Source: an uncultured Bacilli bacterium (lineage in GTDB: Bacteria; Bacillota_I; Bacilli_A; RFN20; CAG-449). Taken from it: a DNA stretch of 56,487 nt. The notes under the pieces are model-generated. The model was not told where the DNA came from and searched no databases. It saw only the letters and a program-made list of their open reading frames with translations. The position numbers were made by a program, and so were the translations under genes. This document shows positions 12,093-32,445 of this stretch, piece after piece (the first letter of the stretch is position 1; each line of letters begins with the position of its first letter). The stretch spans positions 1 through 56,487 of the forward strand of contig CALVJL010000010.1 of NCBI GenBank assembly GCA_944332075.1, given 5' to 3'.

Positions 12093-13304
12093 TTAGAAAA
12101 ATTCTTTTTGTGAATAGAGATATAATCCGTTTTTCTCGTCGTGATTAATCTTTCCGCGGATTAATGGAATGAGATAATCGATAAACTCTTGGCTGATGTT
12201 ATCTTTTGTTCCGTTTAACATTGAAAGAGGTAAATACTTAATTTGATTAGCAATTTTTTCAAATGGCACTAATTCATAGGTGAGTTGATAATTGTTTTTA
12301 TCAAGTCTTTTCATTGTTACCATTCCGTTTCCATAATCGTTAGAAGCATACTTAACGGCATTTTCTCCGCAGTGGATGGCTTCTTTAATATCGGTTAAAG
12401 AAGCTTCTGGAGCAAAGCAGCGCTGCAATAATGATAATTCAATTGCTCTTGTTGATATATTAAGTTTTTCTTCAACTAAAGCAGCTAAGTAATGAGAAAC
12501 ACCACCGAGCTGAGAATGGGCAAAAACATCTTGGCTAGCTTGCTTATAAACAAATTCGCCTTCTTTATCTTTGATACCCTCAGATACGGCGACTAATACG
12601 CGACCTTTTTCTTTATAAATTCTTTCCACTTCGGTTAAAAATTTACTTGTATCAAAAGCGACTTCTGGGACAAATATTAAATCAGGACCAGATTTATGAA
12701 GCGAAGCTAATCCGCTAGCGGCGGTTAGCCATCCGGTATCACGGCCCATAATTTCGACGATATTAACTCGTCCTTTTTGATAAGTTAAGTTATCATAGGT
12801 TAATGTTTCCATAACATTAGCGACAAATTTGGCTGCTGAGGCAAAACCAGGTGTATGGTCAGTGATAACTAAATCATTATCAATGGTTTTTGGAATACCG
12901 ATAAATTTGCAAGGATATTTTTTAAATTTAAGATAAGCAGATAGTTTCATCGCGGTATCCATTGAATCGTTACCACCATTTAGAAAAATATAATGAATAT
13001 TATTTTTCTTTAAAGTATCGAGAATTCTTAAATAGTCTTCTTCATCTTCATGAAAATCCTTCATCTTATAACGAACAGATCCTAATATGCATGAAGGTGT
13101 ATAAGGCAATAATTCGATTTGCTCAGTTGGAATAGATTTAGCGTTTTTTAAATCATTATTTATCAAACCTTTGATTCCGTAATGCGAGAGAAATAAATCT
13201 CCGATTGTATCGGATATCTCGACTTGGTTAATGACACCGAATAATGATGCGTTGATAACGGAGGTTGGACCACCAGACTGTAAATAAACTGCATTTTCTT
13301 TCAT
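12093..13304 (-). CDS. pfp: Diphosphate-fructose-6-phosphate 1-phosphotransferase (PPi-PFK)
   Basis: The 403-residue enzyme phosphorylates fructose 6-phosphate using pyrophosphate, reversibly, in glycolysis. Instead of the GGDGS of ATP enzymes it has GGNDSMDTA (about residue 108), whose second acidic residue blocks ATP, and PKTIDND (about 138) in place of GTIDND; the lysine there is a mark of PPi use. MGRDTGW lies further on. The start has AGGAGAT upstream on the minus strand. It stands alone, divergent from the str operon. Use of PPi saves one ATP per hexose and links glycolysis to PPi made by biosynthesis and HprK activity. The cofactor is inferred from motifs. Confidence 0.88.
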   Translation of the reverse strand: MKENAVYLQSGGPTSVINASLFGVINQVEISDTIGDLFLSHYGIKGLINNDLKNAKSIPTEQIELLPYTPSCILGSVRYKMKDFHEDEEDYLRILDTLKKNNIHYIFLNGGNDSMDTAMKLSAYLKFKKYPCKFIGIPKTIDNDLVITDHTPGFASAAKFVANVMETLTYDNLTYQKGRVNIVEIMGRDTGWLTAASGLASLHKSGPDLIFVPEVAFDTSKFLTEVERIYKEKGRVLVAVSEGIKDKEGEFVYKQASQDVFAHSQLGGVSHYLAALVEEKLNISTRAIELSLLQRCFAPEASLTDIKEAIHCGENAVKYASNDYGNGMVTMKRLDKNNYQLTYELVPFEKIANQIKYLPLSMLNGTKDNISQEFIDYLIPLIRGKINHDEKNGLYLYSQKEFF

Positions 13305-20923: not shown

Positions 20924-22159
20924 ATGAAAGTTGTGTTAGACAAGTTAACTAAGATTTTCCCTAATAAGAAAAAAAATGAAGAAGTTGTTGCGGTTAACAA
21001 TTTCACATTTGAAATTCCTGATGGAAAATTGATTGGATTACTTGGCCCTTCTGGATGTGGTAAATCGACAACATTATATATGTTATCTGGTTTACAAAAG
21101 CCGAGTTCGGGCAAAATTTATTTTGGAGATGATGATGTTACAACATTAGCTCCAGAGAAGCGTGGAGTTGGATTAGTTTTCCAAAACTATGCGCTTTACC
21201 CACATATGACTGTAAAGCAAAATATCTTATTTCCTTTACAAAATCAAAAAGTCAGTAAAGAGGAAGCTTTACGCAGAACTATTGAAGTTGCTAAATTAGT
21301 TCAAATTGATGAATTGTTAGACCGTAAACCTAATGAATTGTCCGGTGGTCAACAACAACGTGTTGCAATTGCAAGAGCCTTAGTTAAACAACCAAAAGTC
21401 TTGTTATTAGATGAGCCATTATCTAATCTAGATGCGAGATTGAGGTTACAAACTCGTGAAGAGATTAGACGTATTCAAAGAGAAACAAAGGTAACAACAA
21501 TTTTCGTCACACATGACCAAGAAGAAGCGATGTCCATTTCTGATTTGATTGTTGTTATGAAAAAAGGTGTTGTTCAACAAATCGATCACCCTCAGGATGT
21601 TTATGACAATCCAAAAAATCTTTTTGTCTCTAAATTTTTAGGTACACCTCCAATCAACGTTTTTACTGGTGTTATTAAAGACCATAAAGTTTTCATTGGA
21701 AATGATAATATTGCTTTCTGCGATGCACCTGATCAAGAGGTTTATGTCGGTATTCGACCTGAAGGTTTTGCTATTGATAAGAATGGCCCGTTCAAGTTAC
21801 CAGTTAAGAGCATTGAAGTTATGGGGAGAGACTCTTCCATTATTGGTGAACGTGATGAAGCTGAGAACAAAATTGTAAAGGCAATTGTTAACGATTTGAT
21901 TGATAATCCAAGCAAGGTTTTTGCGGGTATCAGCGAAATTTCTTTGGGCATTAAAGAACATAAGATTTTCTTATTTAATAAGGAAACTGAGGAAAGAATT
22001 AATGTAGAAATTAAGACTACGTTGGCTGATAATAAAGAAAATAAATTAAACAAAGTAACAACTAAAAGAAGTGTTGCAGAAAAATCTGCTGGTAAAAGCG
22101 AAAAAAAGGTCGTAAGAAAAACAGCAAAAAAAGTATCAAATGTTGTTAAGGAGAAGTAA
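20924..22159 (+). CDS. ABC importer ATPase, MalK/UgpC/MsmX-like, with basic tail
   Basis: The 411-residue protein powers import through the permeases that follow. Walker A GPSGCGKST is at about residues 41-49, the signature LSGGQQQR near 139, and Walker B VLLLDEPLSNLD follows. A C-terminal regulatory barrel like that of carbohydrate-type importers extends to about 360. The last 50 residues are extra: lysine-rich, low in hydrophobics and likely disordered (ending VSNVVKEK). AAGGAGG lies unusually far, about 13 nt, from the ATG. Substrate cannot be read from the ATPase; MsmX-type subunits can serve several permeases. Confidence 0.92.
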   Translation: MKVVLDKLTKIFPNKKKNEEVVAVNNFTFEIPDGKLIGLLGPSGCGKSTTLYMLSGLQKPSSGKIYFGDDDVTTLAPEKRGVGLVFQNYALYPHMTVKQNILFPLQNQKVSKEEALRRTIEVAKLVQIDELLDRKPNELSGGQQQRVAIARALVKQPKVLLLDEPLSNLDARLRLQTREEIRRIQRETKVTTIFVTHDQEEAMSISDLIVVMKKGVVQQIDHPQDVYDNPKNLFVSKFLGTPPINVFTGVIKDHKVFIGNDNIAFCDAPDQEVYVGIRPEGFAIDKNGPFKLPVKSIEVMGRDSSIIGERDEAENKIVKAIVNDLIDNPSKVFAGISEISLGIKEHKIFLFNKETEERINVEIKTTLADNKENKLNKVTTKRSVAEKSAGKSEKKVVRKTAKKVSNVVKEK

Positions 22160-22162
22160 ATT

Positions 22163-24061
22163 ATGGAATTAAAGAAATTAATTTCTCCCGAAACAGAGAA
22201 AATCATTAACGATAAGTTGCTTGAACTAGAAAGCTTATACAATAATTATTTCTATAGAAAAAATTATTCAAAAAACGAATTAAAAAAGCTTAATAATGAT
22301 GTTTCTTTTGAACTTCGTCAAGCTAAACAAAAATTGTTACGCGCAGATTTCGTTAATAAAAAAGCAGAATTAAAGTCTTATAAAGATAAAAGAAGAAAAG
22401 AAATAGCTGAAAATCAAGTTAAGTTAAAAGTCGATTTAAATAATCTAAAAAAAGAAATAACTATTAAAAGAAAAGAATTAGACTTATTTATTAGAAACAC
22501 TTATGATGATGCTATTAAATCTAGACAAGAAGAAATCAAACCTTTAAAAGCAGAATTAAAAAATAGTAAAAAAGATAAAATTTCTAAAAATAAAGCTATT
22601 CTTTTTAATAAAGATATCAATACTACTAATTCAAGCAAGATTAGTGAACTAAAAAAAATATATAAAGAAGAATGCGCAGCACTAGATTTGTCTTGCAAAG
22701 AAGAAATAGATAAGGAAGTTAATTCACTTGATGTTTCTCTATCAGAAAAAGATAAAAAGTCTGCTGTTAAAAAAATTAAACATAATATTTCTAGTAAATA
22801 TAGCGAATTAAAAATTGATAAAAAAATAAATTTAGATCATGAAATCGCAGCTATAAATCAAAACATCACTGATGCTAAAACACAGATTTCTACTGATAAA
22901 AGATTTTGCAAAGATAGAATTAGAGAATTAAATAATTCTGTCTTATCTCTTGTTTCAGCAAAATATTCATTAATATATAAAACTAATAATTCACACTTAT
23001 CGGTTTTAGATAGAATGAGTCGATATTTTAAAGAAACTAGATATAGTTTTGATTGGAATGTTTTCTATCGTGAAAACAAGGCATGGATTTATTTACTACC
23101 AGCTTTGATTTTATTACTTATCTTTACAGTTTATCCAATTATTAATACGATTAGAATTGCTTTTTTAGAAGGTTATTCACCTTTAGGGTCTTTAGGAGGA
23201 CAAATATTCCCGATTGGCTTTGGTAACTTTACTAAAGTTATTAAATATCCGGGTTTCTTAACAGCTTTGAAAAACACGATGGTTTTAACCATATTAACTG
23301 TTCCAATCTCTTGTTTCTTAGCTTTAATTGTTTCTGTTTTCCTAAATTCTATTACTAAATTTTCAAGAACATTTCAAACTATTTACTTCTTACCATACGT
23401 TACAAACTCAATTGCTATTGGTATGGTTTTCGCGGCTATGTTTAATATCGTCGGATTACAGCCTGTCGCTGTTGAGTCTTATACCGGTTCATTACAAATT
23501 TATAATCAATATGTTGATGCCGAGGGAGTTTTAAGAGGATTTACCGCTGAATCGTGGGGTATTGTTAACTATTTAATTATGCTATTCGGTGGAAATCCAA
23601 TTAACTGGATTAATGTCGGGTCATCTTATGTTGCTAATATTACGGTTATGGTTATTTACATTATATGGAATGCTCTGCCATTTAAAATATTAATTTTATT
23701 AGGCGGGTTGCAAAGTGTAAATAAACAATATTATGAAGCAGCAAAAATTGATGGTGCTTCGAAAGGAACTGTTTTCTGGAGAATTACTGTCCCAATGCTC
23801 TCACCAATGATTGCCTATGTTGTTATTACTGGTTTTATTGGTGGTTTCAAAGAATACTCAAGCATTGTTGGTGTTTTCGGTGAAGGCATGGGTCCTGCTG
23901 GTAACGCCGGCTCATTAAATACTATTGTCGGTATGATTTACGATTCATTATCGAGTGATAATTATGGTCGTGCATCAGCTGCAGCTTTAATCTTATTCGT
24001 GATTATTCTTGCTGTTACTTTAGTTAATTTATATGTCAGTAAGAAAAAGGTTCATTACTAG
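22163..24061 (+). CDS. ABC importer permease fused to a long charged coiled-coil-like N-terminus
   Basis: The 632-residue protein has two parts. Residues 1 to about 290 are almost purely Lys/Glu/Asp/Asn/Ser/Leu, with heptad-like stretches and no membrane segment, likely a cytoplasmic coiled coil. From AWIYLLPALILLL (about residue 307) it is a MalF/UgpA-type permease with six helices and the EAA loop EAAKIDGASKG at about 525-535, which docks on the ATPase. Ordinary permeases of this class are about 290-320 residues. The frame is open with one start 4 nt after the ATPase stop, and its ribosome site GGAG lies in the ATPase 3' end. The extension is unusual. Confidence 0.88.
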   Translation: MELKKLISPETEKIINDKLLELESLYNNYFYRKNYSKNELKKLNNDVSFELRQAKQKLLRADFVNKKAELKSYKDKRRKEIAENQVKLKVDLNNLKKEITIKRKELDLFIRNTYDDAIKSRQEEIKPLKAELKNSKKDKISKNKAILFNKDINTTNSSKISELKKIYKEECAALDLSCKEEIDKEVNSLDVSLSEKDKKSAVKKIKHNISSKYSELKIDKKINLDHEIAAINQNITDAKTQISTDKRFCKDRIRELNNSVLSLVSAKYSLIYKTNNSHLSVLDRMSRYFKETRYSFDWNVFYRENKAWIYLLPALILLLIFTVYPIINTIRIAFLEGYSPLGSLGGQIFPIGFGNFTKVIKYPGFLTALKNTMVLTILTVPISCFLALIVSVFLNSITKFSRTFQTIYFLPYVTNSIAIGMVFAAMFNIVGLQPVAVESYTGSLQIYNQYVDAEGVLRGFTAESWGIVNYLIMLFGGNPINWINVGSSYVANITVMVIYIIWNALPFKILILLGGLQSVNKQYYEAAKIDGASKGTVFWRITVPMLSPMIAYVVITGFIGGFKEYSSIVGVFGEGMGPAGNAGSLNTIVGMIYDSLSSDNYGRASAAALILFVIILAVTLVNLYVSKKKVHY

Positions 24062-24072
24062 GAGGCATAAAT

Positions 24073-25023
24073 ATGGCAAACGAAGAAAATAAAAAAATCA
24101 TCGATGGTCAGCATGTTGATGTTTCTAGTAATGGTACATTGGTAGCTAAAGAAGATCGATATGATATTGAAAAACTTACAAGATCTCAATTGATTAGCAA
24201 GATTATTTCTTATTTTATAATTTATTTGTTGTTAATTCTCTTAGCAATTATAGTTTTATTCCCTTTCTATTGGATGATTAACTCATCATTAAAATCACTT
24301 ACAGAATATAAATACTCTATTCCTACTTTTTTCCCAGAGCATATTGTTTGGCAAAACTATGTTGATGCATTCAATACAGCAAATTTAGGTAGATTATTCA
24401 TCAATACTTTATATGTTGGCGTTGTTTCTACTTTGTTATCATTAGTTATTACTATTTTATCGGCATTTGCTTTTGCTAGATTAGAGTTTAAAGGCAAAAA
24501 CGTCATGTTTGCTGCTTTATTGGCAACTATGATGATTCCAGGTGAATTATTTACTATTACTAACTATGAAACAGTTGTTGTTTGGTTTGATTGGAAAAAT
24601 ACATTCACTGCATTGATTGTCCCATTCTTAGTTTCAGTCTTCTATATATATCTATTAAGACAATCATTCTTACAGGTTCCAAATGAACTGTATCTAGCAG
24701 CTAAAGTTGATGGTACAAGCGATTTAAAATATTTAGTTAAAGTAATGATTCCGTTAGCTTTACCAACAATTATCACAATTACAATTTTAAAGATGATGGG
24801 AGCATGGAACTCTTACGTTTGGCCACGTTTAGTCGCAAATGATGCAGCTCACCAAATGATTACTAATGGTTTAAGAAATGCATTTACTGATAACACTGGC
24901 GAAGTAAACTATCCAGTACAAATGGCTGCTGTCGCTCTCGTATCGATTCCGTTATTCTTGATTTTCCTCTTCTTTAGAAAGTACATTATGAGAGGCGTTT
25001 CAAGAAGTGGTATTAAAGGCTAA
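24073..25023 (+). CDS. ABC importer permease, MalG/UgpE-like
   Basis: The 316-residue second permease has a polar N-terminal tail of about 45 residues, then six membrane helices and the EAA loop LAAKVDGTSDLKYL near residue 210. It ends KYIMRGVSRSGIKG, the typical MalG-type C-terminus. AGGAGG is 6 nt before the ATG. It pairs with the upstream extended permease to form the channel. Confidence 0.93.
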   Translation: MANEENKKIIDGQHVDVSSNGTLVAKEDRYDIEKLTRSQLISKIISYFIIYLLLILLAIIVLFPFYWMINSSLKSLTEYKYSIPTFFPEHIVWQNYVDAFNTANLGRLFINTLYVGVVSTLLSLVITILSAFAFARLEFKGKNVMFAALLATMMIPGELFTITNYETVVVWFDWKNTFTALIVPFLVSVFYIYLLRQSFLQVPNELYLAAKVDGTSDLKYLVKVMIPLALPTIITITILKMMGAWNSYVWPRLVANDAAHQMITNGLRNAFTDNTGEVNYPVQMAAVALVSIPLFLIFLFFRKYIMRGVSRSGIKG

Positions 25024-25074
25024 TCTATGTTAGCAAAAAAACATATTTTATAAAAAAGGAGATTTTAAAAAAGT

Positions 25075-26475
25075 ATGAAAACCAAATTAGTTCTCAAATT
25101 AGCCGCGCTTGCTACATTAGCATGCACTGCAGTTACATTATCTAGCTGTGGCGGTTACAGAATTCAACCTGGTGACTGGGTTGCACCTGAAGGTGGATTC
25201 GATGAATCAGCTGAAGTAACTATCAGTTTCTATTCCACTATGGGAGATGATTTACAAAAAGTTTTTGATACATATTTAGCAGACTTTAATAAATTATATC
25301 CTAATATTCACGTTGAACATGAACCTATCGGTGGCTATGACGATGTTAGAGATCAAATTAAAACAGAATTATCAGTTGGTCAAGGACCAAATCTTGCGTA
25401 TTGTTATCCTGACCATGTCGCACTTTATAATAAGTCTGGCCGTGTTTGCACTCTTGATCCATTAATTCATAGCACTGAAGAAGTAACTTTAGGTGATGGC
25501 ACTAAAACAATTATCGGTTTGACCGATGAAGAAATTGATAATTACATACCTGGTTATTATGAAGAAGGTAAACAATTTGGCGATAATAAATTATATACGT
25601 TACCTTTCTCAAAATCTACTGAAGTATTATATTACAATGTTGATTTCTTTGAGAAAAATAATTTAACAGTTCCTACTACTTGGGATGAAATGGAAGAAAC
25701 ACTAAAGAAAATTAAAGAGATTGATCCAGATTCAACTCCATTAGGATATGACTCAGAAGCTAACTGGTTTATCACTATGTGTGAGCAACTTAATACTCCA
25801 TATACTTCTGCTACTGGTGAACATTTCTTATTTAATACTCCAGAAAACAAAGAGTTCGTCCAAAGATTCGCTAATTGGTATAAAAATGGTTATATTACTA
25901 CTCAAGAATTAAATGGTGGCTACACTTCAGACTTATTTGTCTCTCAAAAATCCTATATGTCAATTGGCTCTTCTGCTGGCGCCACTCACCAATTACCTGC
26001 AGCTGATGCTTCTGGTGTTAGACCGTTTGAAGTCGGTATTGCTCCAATTCCACAAGCTGATGCTGAAAATCATCCAGCAGTTATTTCCCAAGGACCATCT
26101 TTAGTTATGTTTAAAGATGAAGATCCACAAAAGGTTTATGCTTCTTGGTTATTAATGAAATTCATGACTAGTAATGCTGAATTCCAAGCACAATTCTCAA
26201 TTTCTTCTGGTTATGTTCCAGCCGTTACAACAGTCAACGATATTCCAGCTTATCAAGAACACCTCAGTAAAGCAGATGGCGGTGACAATATTTCTGCATT
26301 AGCAGCTAAAGTTTGTATGGAACAAGAAGAATGGTATTTCACATCACCAGCTTTCATTGGTTCTTCTGAAGCAAGAGACCAAGTTGGTAACTTAATGCAA
26401 GCAGTCTTATCCGGTTCAAAAGATATTGATAAAGCTTTTTCTGATGCTATTGCCGAATGCGAAGCTTCTCTATAA
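25075..26475 (+). CDS. ABC substrate-binding lipoprotein 1 (MalE-type)
   Basis: The 466-residue protein has a lipobox LSSC with lipidated Cys25 after a basic-hydrophobic signal, then a solute-binding fold of the carbohydrate cluster. The ITISFYSTMG-like start of the first domain, the FSKSTEVLYYN hinge block and the TTWDEMEETL stretch are typical. AAAAGGAG lies upstream. It is clearly paralogous to the next gene. Annotation programs would call it sugar-binding, but this cluster also contains members for other polar ligands, and the nuclease neighbours point to nucleosides or oligonucleotides as an alternative. Confidence 0.88.
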   Translation: MKTKLVLKLAALATLACTAVTLSSCGGYRIQPGDWVAPEGGFDESAEVTISFYSTMGDDLQKVFDTYLADFNKLYPNIHVEHEPIGGYDDVRDQIKTELSVGQGPNLAYCYPDHVALYNKSGRVCTLDPLIHSTEEVTLGDGTKTIIGLTDEEIDNYIPGYYEEGKQFGDNKLYTLPFSKSTEVLYYNVDFFEKNNLTVPTTWDEMEETLKKIKEIDPDSTPLGYDSEANWFITMCEQLNTPYTSATGEHFLFNTPENKEFVQRFANWYKNGYITTQELNGGYTSDLFVSQKSYMSIGSSAGATHQLPAADASGVRPFEVGIAPIPQADAENHPAVISQGPSLVMFKDEDPQKVYASWLLMKFMTSNAEFQAQFSISSGYVPAVTTVNDIPAYQEHLSKADGGDNISALAAKVCMEQEEWYFTSPAFIGSSEARDQVGNLMQAVLSGSKDIDKAFSDAIAECEASL

Positions 26476-26488
26476 TTAAGGAAATAAT

Positions 26489-27883
26489 ATGAAAAAACTA
26501 CTAAAATCAATCGTTGCCATTACTACAATTGCTACGTGCGCTGTTTTTACAAGTGGTTGCGGATCCAGAGGATTACCAGAATTTGTAATGCCTGAAACAG
26601 GTTTTGATACAGAAAAACCTGTTGAAATTACTTTCTATCACACAATGGGACAAAGTCTTCAACAAGTTTTGGACATGTATCTTGAAGACTTCCATGAAAT
26701 GTATCCTAATATTACAGTTAAGCATCAGTCTATTGGTGCTTATGATGATGTGCGTGATCAAATGGTCACTGAAATTTCTACTGCAAGATTAGATTGTGAT
26801 ATGGCTTATTGCTATCCTGATCATGTCGCTACATATAACAAAGCAAATTCTGTTGTTAATCTCGATACATTAATCGATTCAGATTTAACTGTTACTCATG
26901 CTGACGGAACAACAGAGCAAATTGGTTATACTCAAGCACAAAAAGATGATTTTGTTGATGCTTATTATGAAGAGGGTAAAAGTTTTGGTGATGGCAGCGT
27001 TTATTGCTTACCATTCTCTAAATCTTCAGAAGTTATGTATTATAACAAAACATTCTTTGATGAACATGACTTGGATGTTCCAACAACTTGGGATGAGGTT
27101 GAAACGGTTGCTAAAGAAATTAAGAAGTTAGAACCAGATTCTATTCCTTTTGCATACGATTCTGAATCTAACTTATTCATTACGATGACTGAGCAGCTTA
27201 ATACACCTTATACTTCTGCTAATGAGCCACATTATCTTTTCAATACTAAAGAAAACAAAGATTTTGTAACTAAATTTGCTTCTTGGTATCAACAAGGTTT
27301 AATGACTACTAAAGAAATGTATGGATCATATACTTCAGGTTTATTTACCAGTACAACCGGTAGTAAATGTTATATGTGTGTAGGTTCTTCTGCTGGTGCG
27401 TCTTATCAAATTCCTACTCCAATTAATGGACAATATCCATTTGAAGTCGGTATTGCTCCAATCCCTCAAGCTGATGTTGAAAATCATCCAGCAGTTATCC
27501 AGCAGGGACCAGATATCTGTATCTTCAGAAATAAGGATCCACAAAAGGTCTTAGCCTGCTGGTTATTGACTAAATTTTTAACGACATCAGTTGAATTCCA
27601 GGCCCAATTTTCTATGATATCTGGTTATACGCCTGTTATTGAATCTGTCTATGAAAATCAAATTTATCAAGATTTTCTTGATAGTGCTAATGGTTATGGT
27701 CGGTTGGCGGCTTTAGCTACTAAACAAACTGTTCAACAATCTGACTGGTATTTTTATTCTCCAGCTTTTGAAGGTTCTTCTAAGGCAAGAGATCAAGTTG
27801 GATTTATTCTGCCTGCTGTCATGGGAAATACAAAATCAGTTGATGAGGCGTTTGATGACGCTATCACCGAATGCGAATATTAA
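26489..27883 (+). CDS. ABC substrate-binding lipoprotein 2, tandem paralogue
   Basis: This 464-residue protein has lipobox TSGC (Cys24) and aligns along its length with the preceding protein: both have YDDVRDQ, YCYPDHVA, LPFSKS and IPQAD blocks. It is 13 nt downstream behind AAGGAAA. Divergence is spread through the ligand-facing regions as well as the surface, so the pair may bind different ligands for one channel. Same fold and anchoring; ligand not known. Confidence 0.88.
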   Translation: MKKLLKSIVAITTIATCAVFTSGCGSRGLPEFVMPETGFDTEKPVEITFYHTMGQSLQQVLDMYLEDFHEMYPNITVKHQSIGAYDDVRDQMVTEISTARLDCDMAYCYPDHVATYNKANSVVNLDTLIDSDLTVTHADGTTEQIGYTQAQKDDFVDAYYEEGKSFGDGSVYCLPFSKSSEVMYYNKTFFDEHDLDVPTTWDEVETVAKEIKKLEPDSIPFAYDSESNLFITMTEQLNTPYTSANEPHYLFNTKENKDFVTKFASWYQQGLMTTKEMYGSYTSGLFTSTTGSKCYMCVGSSAGASYQIPTPINGQYPFEVGIAPIPQADVENHPAVIQQGPDICIFRNKDPQKVLACWLLTKFLTTSVEFQAQFSMISGYTPVIESVYENQIYQDFLDSANGYGRLAALATKQTVQQSDWYFYSPAFEGSSKARDQVGFILPAVMGNTKSVDEAFDDAITECEY

Positions 27884-31956: not shown

Positions 31957-32032
31957 GGACCCTTAGCTCAGTTGGCAGAGCAACTGACTCTTAATCAGTG
32001 GGTCTAGAGTTCGAATCTCTAAGGGTCCACCA
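31957..32032 (+). tRNA. tRNA-Lys(CUU)
   Basis: The full cloverleaf can be folded: acceptor GGACCCT/AGGGTCC, D stem GCTC/GAGC, anticodon stem ACTGA/TCAGT with loop CTCTTAA (anticodon CUU), T stem TAGAG/CTCTA with loop TTCGAAT, discriminator A and encoded CCA. It reads AAG codons. It is a single tRNA gene with its own promoter and terminator. Confidence 0.97.
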
Positions 32033-32048
32033 GCTTATATAGATTTAG

Positions 32049-32070
32049 TAACCTTCGGGTTATTTTTTTT
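32049..32070 (+). terminator. Terminator after tRNA-Lys
   Basis: TAACC pairs with GGTTA around a TTCG loop, followed by eight T. Confidence 0.85.
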
Positions 32071-32075
32071 TACAA

Positions 32076-32099
32076 AAAAAAGAAGCATTTGCTTCTTTT
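32076..32099 (-). terminator. Terminator of the HPr-like gene
   Basis: A 9-bp perfect stem AAAAGAAGC/GCTTCTTTT with a 4-nt loop. On the minus strand it is followed by T-rich sequence. It touches the stop codon of the HPr-like gene and could also back up the tRNA terminator. Confidence 0.8.
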
Positions 32100-32361
32100 A
32101 TAATAAATCAAGTTCTTTTAAGAATTTTTGAAAATTTTCGTAGGCTTTATCTTCGTCTTCGCCTTCAATATTAATAACGAAAGGTGTTGATGAAGGAACA
32201 ACTAAGGCCATGACATTCATTATTGATTTTAAGTCAGCCTCCTCGTCAAAGACTTTAATAGTGATAGAAGATTTAAATTGATTAGCCTCAGCAACTATCT
32301 GCGCGGATAAGCGAGATGTTAATCCTTTTGTGTTATTAACTTTTCCTTCAATTACTTTCAT
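32098..32361 (-). CDS. HPr-like (Crh-like) regulatory protein lacking the active-site histidine
   Basis: The 87-residue protein has the HPr fold and length, with the regulatory serine region KSIMNVMAL placing Ser46 exactly where HPr kinase acts. The phosphotransfer region reads KGLTSRLSA where PTS HPr has GLHARPA: position 15 is Thr, not His, and Pro18 is Leu. It cannot accept phosphate from enzyme I in the usual way. In B. subtilis the same situation (Gln at 15, Ser46 kept) defines Crh, a regulator. HprK is encoded at 47.2 kb. GAGGT lies before the ATG. A PTS-free signalling role is inferred; a separate true HPr may exist elsewhere. Confidence 0.85.
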   Translation of the reverse strand: MKVIEGKVNNTKGLTSRLSAQIVAEANQFKSSITIKVFDEEADLKSIMNVMALVVPSSTPFVINIEGEDEDKAYENFQKFLKELDLL

Positions 32362-32445
32362 ATTTTTACCTCATTTACTCGTTAACATTATTTTACTATT
32401 TAATTATTTTTTCGGCAATAATTATAAAACAATGATTGTTTTGTT

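Follow-up and report, generated by a model that had tools for sequence, protein, structure and literature searches.

The host of the window (the whole 56,487-nucleotide stretch of DNA that we analysed, from an uncultured Bacilli bacterium) seems to keep HPr purely as a sugar-status signal after the loss of its sugar-phosphotransfer machinery. Sequence comparisons lead us to propose, with a probability of roughly 0.83, that the HPr-like protein encoded here is a signalling-only, Crh-like member of an HprK-CcpA catabolite-control pathway that has outlived the phosphotransferase system (PTS). In model Firmicutes, HPr takes part in sugar transport through His15 and in catabolite control through Ser46, and since one protein serves both, either role is difficult to examine on its own. 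The bacteria described here would be natural separation-of-function cases, with HprK-HPr-CcpA signalling in genomes without a detected PTS, beside relatives whose PTS HPr lost Ser46. They would allow tests of whether catabolite control needs a PTS, of what HprK senses without one, and of how a shared protein evolves once it is released by the loss of one partner. A literature search, conducted without most subscription journals, found no paper on an enzyme-I-less HprK-HPr system that had lost His15.

As the preliminary description had read, the protein has Thr at the phosphotransfer position and an intact Ser46 (Table 1). Both residues were placed by alignment to B. subtilis HPr and Crh, in a residue register that matched a PDB search and the Pfam model. 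The translation (beginning MKVIEGKVNNTKGLTSRLSAQIVAEANQFKSSITIKVFDEEADLKSIMNVMAL...) scored 69.7 bits against Pfam PTS-HPr (PF00381, cut-off 23) and 65.6 against TIGR01003 (cut-off 47.9), and its AlphaFold model (mean pLDDT 94.4) has an ordinary HPr fold, so that curated scores and fold both place it in the family. The best solved structure matches of the model were Mycoplasma and Bacillus HPrs, with the Mycoplasma HPr 1pch as top relative. Wrong coordinates had been suspected, since stops run throughout the plus-strand frame; the gene lies on the minus strand. It looks monocistronic. A tRNA-Lys (CTT) gene sits between a uridine-kinase-like gene and the convergent HPr gene.

Table 1 Features of the window and, in the last line, of a second contig of the same genome
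Feature	Position	Strand	Remarks
HPr-like protein, 87 aa	32098..32361	-	Thr15, Arg17, Ser46; proposed signalling-only HPr
Thr15 codon of HPr	32319-32317	-	Alignment to B. subtilis HPr and Crh
Ser46 codon of HPr	32226-32224	-	Alignment to B. subtilis HPr and Crh
Ribosome-binding site GAGGT	32368..32372	-	Upstream of the HPr ATG, read from the sequence
Intrinsic terminator, 9-bp stem and T run	32070..32099	-	Directly after the HPr stop codon
tRNA-Lys (CTT)	31957-32032	+	
HprK, HPr(Ser) kinase/phosphorylase, 310 aa	47230..48162	+	N and C domains complete
Phosphofructokinase	12093..13304	-	PF00365, 192 bits; context only
Sugar-type ABC importer genes	20924..27883	+	ATPase, two permeases, two solute-binding proteins; context only
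ABC permease with N-terminal extension	22163-24061	+	
CcpA-like LacI protein (contig C1)	98912-99898	-	Best CcpA-like match of the genome

The Thr15/Ser46 protein was present in 18/18 genomes of the host's family, and Thr15, Arg17 and the KSIMN region were conserved across all of them. Purifying selection appears to act on HPr; between genera, dN was far below dS (for example 0.26 versus 1.84), with many of the dS values saturated. Because of this conservation, the low dN and the gene's own ribosome-binding site and terminator, we regard it as neither a sequencing error nor a decaying gene.

The host genome (1.47 Mb in 20 contigs, 98.75% complete) encodes no other HPr. Neither an enzyme I N-domain nor a match to PTS_EIIC, the EII family covered by the search, was found in it. 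Its only PEP-utiliser C-domain was considered as a candidate enzyme I and rejected, since it lies in an 884-aa frame of pyruvate-phosphate-dikinase size and the genome gave no enzyme I N-domain. Two marks of a PTS phosphocarrier, a phosphorylatable His15 and an enzyme I in the same genome, are thus missing. The preliminary description had also reported hprK in the window, and the gene is complete. Its product scored 331.5 bits against TIGR00679 (cut-off 240), and alignment to 1ko7, 1knx and 1jb1 found the P-loop GESGIGKSE and the signature motifs ADDR and MEVRGIG intact. The suggestion that HprK signalling runs here without PTS phosphotransfer through this HPr therefore gains support at the level of sequence, and a working PTS with this protein as its only HPr, which would have spoken against it, was not found in the genome. 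Across several genera and families (the window and G008, G012, G013, G022, G031, G035, G037 and G048), HPr and hprK share a contig at a distance of about 8 to 27 kb, a loose conserved linkage.

Fructose-1,6-bisphosphate stimulates HprK in known systems, and the phosphofructokinase encoded in the window is a likely source of it. The sugar-type ABC importer, whose second permease and first binding protein were named from reading frames only, would provide a PTS-independent uptake route, as judged from its genes. One of its permeases carries about 300 additional N-terminal residues ahead of the transmembrane domain; this unusual extension is Lys/Glu-rich and coiled-coil-like. ABC sugar import without a PTS has also been inferred for most of the uncultured lineages (RFN20, RF39 and others) covered by one survey (PMC7301438).

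Within the order we sampled 156 genomes, each at least 85% complete. HPr was found in 33, enzyme I in 6 and HprK above its cut-off in 26. Position 15 is Thr in families f1 (15 genomes) and f5 (11 genomes) and Asn in f6 (one genome); all 27 HPrs have Ser46, none of the genomes has enzyme I, and HprK was present in all but G014. Conversely, each of the 26 genomes with a full HprK lacks enzyme I and carries an HPr with Ser46 but without His15, although such co-occurrence counts overstate the number of events, the genomes being related and hence not independent. The opposite combination (His15, enzyme I and EIIC, without HprK) is that of the five HPr-bearing f4 genomes. They are the only genomes of the order with EIIC above its cut-off, and four of the five f4 HPrs have Arg46. 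G018 (f2) encodes a Gly15/Ser46 HPr, with no HprK match.

A CcpA homologue, which the preliminary description had proposed to look for, is encoded on a contig other than the window's. Its closest solved relative is B. megaterium CcpA (E 1e-49), but with 216 bits against the NCBIfam cut-off of 442 (TIGR01481) it falls outside the CcpA family as curated. It nevertheless has Arg303, Thr306 and Lys307, residues of the surface at which HPr-Ser46-P docks and triggers the switch, as expected by sequence of a protein with CcpA-like function. We take Lys307 to bind the phosphate, and Tyr89, Val300, Asp69, Asp99 and Asp296 to be further contacts; Asp69 and Asp99, presumably the contacts of HPr Arg17, are mostly not kept in the CcpA-like proteins. 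Arg303 and Lys307 were both kept in 26/26 genomes with HprK, as well as in G014 and G018, and lost in 5/5 enzyme I genomes and in 34 of the 35 HPr-less genomes, the exception being G024 (Fisher value 8e-18, which treats related genomes as independent and is descriptive only). When alignment columns were ranked by how well they separated these groups, leaving aside the LacI proteins of G103 and G134 (not orthologous-looking, both counted among the 35), position 303 came first, and the ten best columns also included 299, 89, 300, 307 and 306. In B. megaterium CcpA, Arg303 is contacted by P-Ser46-HPr, and this contact displaces Thr306 (PMC6155242); in B. subtilis CcpA, no residue matters more for the binding of HPr-Ser46-P than the equivalent Arg304 (PMC4591507). 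The very small f2 genomes G018 (L139) and G024 (L154) keep the docking residues while HprK was not found, and G024 is also without HPr; they may be partway through the loss, or their assemblies may have gaps. Searches of the window for cre-like operators gave three matches to a first consensus form (1.4 expected) and one-mismatch matches only to a second, none of them convincing.

HprK might phosphorylate Ser46 while HPr acts mainly on targets other than a CcpA-like regulator, such as glycogen phosphorylase, a transporter or another enzyme. The divergence of the CcpA-like protein fits such a role, as do the solved E. coli HPr-glycogen phosphorylase complexes among the fold matches of our model. 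We nevertheless consider it unlikely: the docking residues persist only alongside HprK and a Ser46-bearing HPr (again except for G024), and therefore the CcpA-like protein does not look like a bystander. Very unlikely, in our judgement, is that HPr is a decaying relic of the PTS, without a function today. The massive PTS loss in the order would fit that picture, but the conservation of Thr15, Arg17 and the KSIMN region through 18 family genomes, the low dN relative to dS, and the joint retention of HprK and the docking surface all speak against it.

Loss of His15 with Ser46 retained also occurs beyond the order. Among the 296 genomes of our class sample, 11 outside the order had HPr without enzyme I, and HprK was found in 11/11. 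One of them, G262, has three His15 HPrs and was excluded; its missing enzyme I is probably an assembly gap. The ten remaining HPrs all have Ser46, and His15 is absent in eight. Position 15 is Gln in three f27 genomes (two of which, G244 and G256, were assembled into single contigs and gave no enzyme I match), Asn in three (f27 and f22) and Asp in two (f22 and f11); the two exceptions with His15 belong to f14 and f22. The f27 relatives that bear enzyme I have His15. From 30 enzyme I genomes we fetched the best HPr, and 29/29 readable ones were His15/Ser46, in a sample that favours canonical HPrs because the highest-scoring matches were taken. It is most improbable of all that enzyme I or a His15 HPr was missed through genome incompleteness, with the window HPr as a second, Crh-like copy: the assemblies are draft metagenomes and G262 shows that gaps occur, but 27 genomes of three families of the order agree, the host genome is 98.75% complete, and G244 and G256 lack an enzyme I match on single contigs.

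In HprK trees, f1, f5 and f6 grouped together at a long distance from f27, and within f27 the members with His15 were interspersed with those without it. Thus, His15 has very likely been lost more than once, the trees having been built without f22 rows and the number of losses being judged from families rather than counted on a full tree. That Thr15 reflects an independent loss, as suggested in the preliminary description, agrees with the Gln, Asn or Asp of the other enzyme-I-less lineages; the loss is not confined to one organism, since Thr15 is common to two whole families of the order. The same loss occurring several times in related bacteria would mean that evolution repeatedly separated signalling from transport. 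Further HPr-like proteins (L223, L224 and L215-L218) have altered surroundings of position 15 (GLHAALA, GIDARLA, GINAQ) and keep Ser46.

G283 (f22) encodes HprK and two HPrs. The first, His15/Arg46, is flanked by a fructose-type EII gene and enzyme I; the second, Asp15/Ser46, is located elsewhere. One fully read f4 genome also has a fructose-type operon with an Arg46 HPr, and so does G010 of the host's family, where it is possibly foreign since that assembly is 76% complete with 5% contamination. Such operons (EII, His15/Arg46 HPr, enzyme I) were recorded at L210 (G283), L252 (G104) and L003 (G010), in different families, and are possibly mobile. Because of its Arg46, the HPr they encode should be blind to HprK, and a mobile fructose PTS may thus bring along an HPr beyond the reach of HprK. 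On balance it appears somewhat probable that Bacilli, after PTS loss, repeatedly and independently gave their sole HPr over to Ser46 signalling alone, with Thr, Gln, Asn or Asp as residue 15, and that in parallel horizontally spread fructose-PTS operons bring in a His15 HPr without Ser46. Transport and signalling HPrs would then be mutually insulated, with both present in G283.

For the window's host we infer the following course, including the phosphorylation of Ser46, the docking, the effector and the target genes. Sugars would enter via ABC importers, and rising glycolytic intermediates would lead HprK to phosphorylate Ser46 of HPr. HPr-Ser46-P would then dock on the CcpA-like LacI protein via Arg303 and Lys307 and switch its DNA binding, resulting in carbon catabolite control. 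When energy is scarce, HprK would take the phosphate off again. Phosphotransfer at residue 15 would have been lost because enzyme I is absent, after which His15 was presumably free to change.

Compared with the HPrs of Firmicutes and Mollicutes (PF00381), the window protein shares the fold and the Ser46 region KSIMNVM but differs in its His15 to Thr and Pro18 to Leu replacements and in the lack of an enzyme I. Against NF010354, the closest curated small-HPr equivalog model, it scored 50.8 (cut-off 123). The regulatory, incomplete PTS of Brucella is similar in that PTS proteins are retained for regulation without sugar permeases (PMC2937029); Brucella, however, keeps EINtr and NPr, so that phosphotransfer can continue, whereas the host of the window has no enzyme I. 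A close parallel in kind is B. subtilis Crh. Crh carries Gln15 and accompanies a complete PTS that has a separate His15 HPr, whereas the window protein has Thr15 and is the sole HPr of a genome in which no enzyme I or EIIC was found, and hence it is not a Crh orthologue in the strict sense. As a Crh-type regulator it fits by sequence and gene content: both proteins have the HPr fold, a replaced His15, a retained Ser46 and an HprK encoded in the same genome, and we propose that the window protein likewise has HprK as partner and the CcpA-like protein as the receiver of the signal.
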